Shown in pieces: positions 17,682 through 19,249 of a DNA stretch of 51,964 nt. A program made the position numbers and the translations under genes. This stretch comes from Acidobacteriota bacterium. Its GTDB lineage: Bacteria; Acidobacteriota; Terriglobia; Versatilivoradales; Versatilivoraceae. Below the pieces are notes generated by a model. The model searched no databases and was not told where the DNA came from. It saw nothing but the letters and a program-made list of their open reading frames with translations. The stretch lies in assembly GCA_028875575.1 (NCBI GenBank), contig JAPPDF010000039.1:1-51964 (forward strand). Direction: 5' to 3'. The first letter of the stretch is position 1; each line of letters starts with the position of its first letter.

Positions 17682-17833
17682 CCTTGAAATGCCTCCCGAA
17701 AGCGGCCGTCATGGAGAGTCCGGGCCGCCGATCCACCAGCTGGCCCGCCCGGTTTACAAACTTCCGGGCGGTATGATAGAAAAGGTCCATTCCGGGGTTC
17801 CGGCCACCCGGTACCGGCCTGCCTGCGAGGAGG

Positions 17834-19249
17834 ATGTTTCCATTGATCGATAGGCGTTTGCGCTATGGCGCCGGCTTTGTTTTGTCCGTGCTGGCGGTCA
17901 TTGGCCAGGTCCGATCGGCGCCCCAAATCCAGAGTTCCGATTTCGACTTCAGCATCTATTTTACCGGAAACGTTCGGGGGAATCTCGAACCCTGCGGCTG
18001 ACCGCGCAATCCCGCGGGCGGTCTTGCTCGCCGAGCAAACATCATCAGGGAGAGGACCCGGGAGTTTCCCGCCCGTCCGGCCCTCCAGGTGGAGATCGGC
18101 AACTTCATGCAGCGGCTGGGTCCTGATCGGGCGATCAAGAACGAGTGGCTCTGGCAGGGGATGGAGCTGCTGGGAGTCGAGGTTTTCAACATCGGGGGCA
18201 ACGACGTCGAGGAACTTCAGGCCCTGGGAGTGGAACTCGGCAAAAACGGGCGGTTTATCTCCGCCAACCTGCTTTCCGACCAATCGGGCGATCCGCTGCT
18301 CGATCCCTATGTGATCAAGACCATGCCGCCGACGCCCTCCGCCTCCGCTTTCCGGGTCGGCTTCATCGGATTTGCGGTCAGCAAACATTCCTCCGGGAGC
18401 GGTGCGAGCTACCGCTGGGGGAATCCATCCGAGAGCGCGGAGAAATGGCTGCCCGAGTTGAGAGAGAAGTGCGACTACGTGATTGCACTGGCCTGCATGC
18501 CCCTTGGCGATGCCATCCAGTTGGCTATCGACCACAACGGCATCGATATGATTCTCAACGGATTCGAGCATCAAACGGCGATGCCGCCCATCAAGATCAG
18601 CCGGTCGACCATCGTATACGCCGAAGACGAAGCCAAGAGCCTGGGGGAATTGCGCTTTTCGATGAAATCGGGCCGGGCGGCAGTGCAGCCCTTGAATCAT
18701 CGCTTGACCCGTCGTGTGGCCGACGACCCCGATATGGCAGCCTTTATGGTGAAGGCCAAGGCCGACATCTCGGCCAAACAGACCGCGATGGCTCTAGAAA
18801 CCGCCCAGGCCGACGGTCACGAGCACCACGGTCACGACCACGGCCATAGCCACAGCCACGGCAGCCACCGGCATCACGCCGATTCCGATTTTGTAACCTC
18901 CCAAACCTGCGGGACCTGTCATGTGGAGGCCTTCCAGATTTGGGAAAGCTCGGCCCACGCCCATGCCATCGACATCCTTGTCAGGGAAAGGAAGGAGTTC
19001 GATACCCAGTGTGTCATCTGCCACGTGACCGGTTCGGGGCAGCCGGGTGGGTTTGAAGATCTCTATCGCACCGCCCACCTGGCAAACGTTCAGTGTGAGG
19101 CCTGCCACGGTCAGGGTCGGAAACACAGCCAGCAGCCGACCGTGGTCAAGATGGAGCCGCTGGGGCCGAATTCCTGTGTGACCTGCCACAATCGGTCCAA
19201 CAGCCCCGAGTTCGAGTTCGTGTCCTACTGGGAAGCCATCAAGCACTGA
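17834..19249 (+). CDS. UshA-like tetrahaem cytochrome, candidate selenoprotein (in-frame TGA at 17999)
   Basis: A 471-codon frame broken only by TGA at 17999-18001. Codons 1-30 encode a signal peptide (basic RR, then GFVLSVLAVIGQVRSA). The mature start FTGNVRGNLEPCG-TGA-PRNPAGGLARRA matches the UshA-like metallophosphatase N-terminus, where I expect EPCGC, so TGA stands for a Cys (residue 56, read as Sec). Residues 60-310 continue that fold, though some usual metal-site Asp positions look altered (VEIGN, NIGGND). A His-rich stretch spans 328-348. Four CxxCH sites follow (359, 393, 421, 448), so haem would be attached outside the cytoplasm by the ccm system. GAGGAGG abuts the ATG at 17834; the TTG at 17843 has ideal 9-nt spacing and may be the true start. 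Without Sec only a GTG start at 18089 remains, which lacks a signal peptide. Confidence 0.75.
18024..18038 (+). promoter_or_regulatory. Candidate bacterial SECIS hairpin
   Basis: TTGCTC (18024-18029) pairs with GAGCAA (18033-18038) around the three-base loop GCC. This is a 6-bp perfect stem with G first in the loop, and the loop is 28 nt after the TGA. These values agree with the general bacterial SECIS rule (short apical loop with an early G, about 16-37 nt after the UGA). A second helix, GACCGC 18000-18005 with GCGGTC 18018-18023, could stack beneath it. Coding constraint (LARRAN) could explain part of the pairing. Confidence 0.5.

Follow-up and report, generated by a model that had tools for sequence, protein, structure and literature searches.

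A single TGA codon interrupts the otherwise open frame of a gene for an UshA-like tetrahaem protein in the 51,964-nucleotide stretch of Acidobacteriota DNA analysed here (the window, which is contig C39 of a 4.49-Mb assembly estimated to be 100% complete), and we conclude that this TGA (17999–18001, + strand) is real and almost certainly encodes selenocysteine (Sec56). The sequence comparisons make it very probable that the UGA is decoded by SelB and tRNA-Sec under the direction of a SECIS hairpin that would act from just downstream of the codon. By computation we found the TGA to be conserved, its alignment column to be confined to Sec and Cys, the decoding machinery to be present in the genome, and the encoded protein to have a recognizable fold with replaced metal ligands. 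The protein adds a new and divergent relative to the UshA-like selenoproteins already catalogued, and it probably acts as a periplasmic oxidoreductase.

The reading frame and its translation start

The gene (17834–19249, + strand) is open except for the internal TGA, ends with another TGA (19247–19249) and, when the internal codon is read through, yields a product of 471 amino acids counted from the ATG at 17834. Residues around the codon read YFTGNVRGNLEPCG-U-PRNPAGGLARRA, with the local motif EPCG-U, and the region containing Sec is followed by a His-rich linker and then by four CxxCH motifs. An earlier reading made from this DNA sequence alone had described the same frame, and each of its details (the TGA, a signal peptide and four CxxCH motifs) is present, but the start that it assumed is probably not the one used. 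The ATG at 17834 directly abuts AGGAGG (17828–17833, + strand), a probable ribosome-binding site conserved in six relatives, and is ATT in the relative L026. Because the TTG at 17843 lies at the right spacing from AGGAGG (9 nucleotides) and is conserved in six of six close relatives, whereas the ATG is not conserved, comparison of the start regions indicates that TTG 17843 is probably the true translation start. The codons from this TTG onward encode a probable signal peptide, MIDRRLRYGAGFVLSVLAVIGQVRSAP (17843–17923, + strand), with a predicted helix at residues 8–23. Our designation of the gene as that of an UshA-like tetrahaem selenoprotein draws on the readthrough translation, a match to the family model NF041198 (226 bits), the presence of orthologues in 12 genomes from the bacterial family, and this start comparison.

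Conservation of the TGA and the Sec/Cys column

The same TGA recurs in the relatives of the gene. All seven relatives recovered from Acidobacteriota metagenome assemblies, whose best segments show 52–89% identity, carry the codon as TGA. Relatives derive from metagenome bins of sponge type. Among 299 sampled genomes of the class, 12 contain the gene, all of them from the window's bacterial family, and 11 have the TGA; the twelfth match has no stop and begins downstream of the site, such that every family member retaining the region carries the TGA. Additional members were recovered by searching the whole phylum with NF041198, and TGA was also seen in several families beyond the window's own; the final alignment comprised 39 Acidobacteriota sequences (window included). 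The sequence-only reading had named a TGC-to-TGA sequencing error as its main alternative, and one base change in sequencing or assembly would indeed suffice, but the codon is shared by eleven genomes of the bacterial family as well as by the other families; because independent assemblies have the same TGA, we dropped this explanation, the probability of which we consider negligible.

The column itself contained nothing but Sec or Cys, with TGA in 32 of the 39 sequences, TGC in five and TGT in two, which is the pattern that the alignment of homologues had been proposed to look for. Full invariance was seen in only eight columns of the alignment, three of which are C54, G55 and C/U56, with the partner Cys54 (codon TGC, 17993–17995, + strand) unchanged in all 39 sequences. 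Thus, the TGA does stand at a Cys position beside another Cys, in a C-x-U pair, as had been supposed. On a tree of the UshA-like domain, built with the Sec column left out, Sec and Cys have interchanged minimally five times, of which at least three changes are forced by well-supported branches. Sec and Cys forms also occur together in one genome (L052, genome G153), in which the Cys form is part of an open frame of 960 residues; paralogues of the two states thus coexist. Another relative (L028:3001–4281) is without ~40 residues directly after the Sec region (window residues 70–113), as the result of a deletion or of faulty assembly.

If the TGA were instead a true stop, the gene would be a pseudogene or its downstream part would be translated on its own from a start inside the gene, and GTG and ATG codons that could serve are present downstream. 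We regard this as very unlikely. In all close relatives the frame has been kept both before and after the TGA, in agreement with its coding-like appearance in the window sequence, and purifying selection acts on both sides (downstream dN/dS of 0.07–0.25 for the window versus five relatives). The C54-G55-U/C56 motif is invariant across the supposed stop, homologues have a sense Cys codon at the site, and the genome encodes Sec machinery. Moreover, attachment of c-type haem needs a signal peptide, which a separately made downstream part would lack. The homologue column, the tree and the purifying selection therefore exclude in practice a sequencing error, a pseudogene and a true stop.

Selenocysteine machinery of the genome

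The sequence-only reading had proposed a look-up of the Sec genes in the same genome, and all were found there: a tRNA-Sec with anticodon TCA and, by profile searches, selA (526 bits), selB (331 bits) and selD (344 bits). The organism is therefore equipped with everything needed to decode Sec. The machinery also bears on whether the TGA might stand for a different amino acid (for example Trp) under a changed genetic code. Such a code would fit a frame that is open once the TGA is read through, but the gene's own terminator is TGA, a dedicated tRNA-Sec(TCA) is present, and the homologous residue is Cys, all of which make this possibility vanishingly small compared with decoding as Sec. The selD of this genome (L020:412–1431) is itself a selenoprotein gene, with an in-frame TGA in the motif SCAGU at which automatic annotation would cut it.

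We considered and rejected an association between the Cys form and absence of the machinery, as selB is found in nearly all genomes of both the Sec and the Cys types. Only in G006, which has a Cys form without haems, did neither selB nor tRNA-Sec score over the cut-off. The genome of L032, which has the TGA form, contains tRNA-Sec and no selB over the cut-off, perhaps due to a fragmented assembly.

A candidate SECIS hairpin

Downstream of the TGA lies a candidate bacterial SECIS hairpin, GCGGGC-GGUCUU-GCUCGC (18014–18031, + strand), with a 6-bp stem, a 6-nucleotide loop (GGUCUU) that starts 18 nucleotides after the UGA and a predicted energy of –9.1 kcal/mol. Its position and geometry fall within the published bacterial model (PMC13188914). 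When the window sequence was shuffled synonymously, 30% of the shuffles gave an energy as good, a modest advantage that does not make the hairpin exceptional by itself, and a search for covariation or compensatory changes in the hairpin found none. Codon conservation, however, gave a further signal: among nine family members, only three of 73 conserved four- or six-fold codons were invariant at the nucleotide level, and two of these three were the adjacent GGC62 and GGT63, which make up the last bases of the 5′ stem and the GGU of the loop. This invariance provides good but not conclusive support for the candidate SECIS.

Longer RNA segments fold preferentially into other hairpins, including one at 18023–18037 where the peptide LARRA gives rise in most homologues to a coding palindrome (GCN CGN CGN GCN). 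We did not count this palindrome as evidence for a SECIS; it can mimic a hairpin and is a pitfall for SECIS prediction. Two members of another clade without haems (L050 and L058) have CTGGGA-GGUCU-UCCCAG, which shares the GGUCU loop and the 18-nucleotide spacing, and their peptide at this place differs (GGLPRR).

An UshA/SoxB-type fold with replaced metal ligands

The predicted structure of the protein (pLDDT 86.8, using the 39-row alignment; with only the eight closest sequences the model was of poor quality, at pLDDT 44) matched SoxB (2wdc, Z 28.7) and Escherichia coli UshA (1ho5, Z 28.2) over residues ~36–318, in line with the UshA relationship that had been proposed from the sequence and that NF041198 also indicates. 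We therefore assign residues 37–313 (17942–18772, + strand) to an UshA/SoxB/5′-nucleotidase-fold domain on the basis of these matches and of the ligand columns. The window protein has no match to Pfam Metallophos, as is the case for all but three of the 39 members. The metal ligands of UshA (D41, H43, D84, N116, H217 and H252) correspond to N46, R48, N90, G122, C221 and F244 in an alignment of the window protein to 5′-nucleotidases (~20% identity), and none of the 39 members keeps the full two-metal set of D, H, D, N, H and H. The model and the alignment together indicate that the 5′-nucleotidase/SoxB-type fold is kept and the two-metal phosphoesterase site is lost.

The tetrahaem domain and the His-rich linker

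The C-terminal part of the protein is a tetrahaem cytochrome domain of the Cytochrome_C554/C7 type (18884–19246, + strand; PF13435, 6.6e-15; cytochrome c554 structure 1bvb, 1.5e-8), with CxxCH motifs at residues 359, 393, 421 and 448. Haem motifs are present in 32 of the 39 members, and the haem domain is not obligatory in the family because the other seven are without haems. Between the two domains lies a His-rich linker, HEHHGHDHGHSHSHGSHRHH (18818–18877, + strand), which is present in the window and in L026–L031 and absent from L032, L071 and L073–L075. Its length varies within the genus, and it may be a metal binder or simply a flexible insert.

The combination of a His-rich linker with a tetrahaem domain had been thought unusual for an UshA-like selenoprotein. 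For the linker this holds, as it is confined to the genus. The tetrahaem domain, on the other hand, turned out to be a familiar partner: the NF041198 model already spans the haem region, and Sec and four haems occur together in 27 of the 39 sequences, in six bacterial families of the tree.

Relationship to known families

NF041198 (UshA_like_PCGU) was the best family match, at 226.1 bits over both halves of the protein. Because this score is below the cut-off of 275 bits, we place the window protein as a divergent relative rather than as an equivalog member. It shares with NF041198 the PCGU motif (EPCGU in the window), an UshA-like domain with a multihaem region after it (model positions 357–518) and the interchange of Sec and Cys, and it differs in forming a divergent branch with the genus-specific linker. 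All 39 members match NF041198, the SoxB profile and UshA-like selenoprotein family 2 (NF049981). The window protein resembles this last family in a related UshA-like domain (29 bits, residues 40–132) with Sec in the N-terminal part, but NF049981 has CxxU (PMC13188914) where the window has CxU, and its model of 262 positions is too short for a haem domain. With SoxB thiosulfohydrolase and the UshA/CD73 5′-nucleotidases the window protein shares the fold of the N-terminal domain (Z ~28), and it departs from them in its replaced metal ligands, its CGU motif and a tetrahaem domain in place of the 5′-nucleotidase C-terminal domain; its score for SoxB (TIGR04486) is 38.4 bits, below the cut-off of 550. 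The C-terminal domain is like cytochrome c554 of Nitrosomonas (PF13435, 1bvb), except that here it is fused to a Sec-bearing domain. ExtKL (NF040886) is also a multihaem protein with Sec, and with just 10 bits to the window protein it represents a different family.

The Global Ocean Sampling study (PMC2398784) already lists UshA-like CxU selenoproteins (COG0737 UshA-like), in line with the sequence-only reading, which had such proteins recorded from environmental data, and they also appear in reviews (PMC9312934, PMC13188914). Because the NF041198 model already spans the haem domain, the haem architecture is not new. In the open-access literature, where the family has been listed since 2008, we found no paper that gives UshA-like selenoproteins a function, none dealing with their occurrence in Acidobacteriota or with the disappearance of the metal site, and nothing on multihaem selenoproteins together with Acidobacteria; the name NF041198 appeared in one review only. 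Plasmid records returned distant 5′-nucleotidases only.

Proposed function

Because the invariant C-G-U/C lies beside a degraded metal motif and the domain is fused to four haems, redox chemistry is suggested. In the mechanism that we propose, the product would be exported as a 5′-nucleotidase/SoxB-type fold fused to a cytochrome c554-like tetrahaem domain, and the C-G-U pair, which lies near the former metal-binding motif in the sequence, would take over from the two-metal site. Sec56 and Cys54 would cycle between the selenol/thiol and selenenylsulfide states, coupled to the haems, with electrons passing between the four haems and the Cys54–Sec56 selenenylsulfide/selenolate and with Sec attacking a substrate. 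We consider it probable that the protein is a periplasmic oxidoreductase of this kind. The genes around it (Thy1, NFACT, Maf, DciA, an amidase and a two-component system, with Maf and DciA remaining adjacent to the gene throughout the family) are housekeeping genes and gave no clue to its substrate, partner or function.

Sec at this position would also be compatible with a domain that is still a hydrolase or a sulfur-handling enzyme, in which Sec and Cys would bind a substrate or metal without redox chemistry, for instance by cleaving a sulfur adduct in the manner of SoxB. Among solved structures, the nearest fold is that of SoxB, a thiosulfohydrolase whose profile matches 39 of 39 members; some members keep single metal-site residues, and a D-x-H pair is retained in one clade (L054, L056 and L060). 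We nevertheless think such an enzyme unlikely, given that all six metal ligands are missing from the window's family, that no member among the 39 has Asn at the Asn position, and that most members have the four-haem fusion.

Our preferred reading, the haem-coupled oxidoreductase, suggests the conversion of a phosphoesterase fold into a redox domain coupled to haems. More tentatively, this conversion may have been family-wide in Acidobacteriota, with the dinuclear metal site lost and Cys-Gly-Sec installed beside it to give a periplasmic reductase or oxidase that depends on selenium and represents a new catalytic type, a scenario that we regard as possible without rating it as probable. With the UGA only 55 codons from the start, such genes are easily missed or annotated as truncated. 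In the Acidobacteriota set, UshA-like selenoproteins are common, Sec and Cys have interchanged repeatedly, most members have four haems, and the metal site is largely gone. For a family that has been annotated but not explained, these features provide a testable hypothesis, in which a nucleotidase scaffold supports selenenylsulfide redox chemistry coupled to haems.
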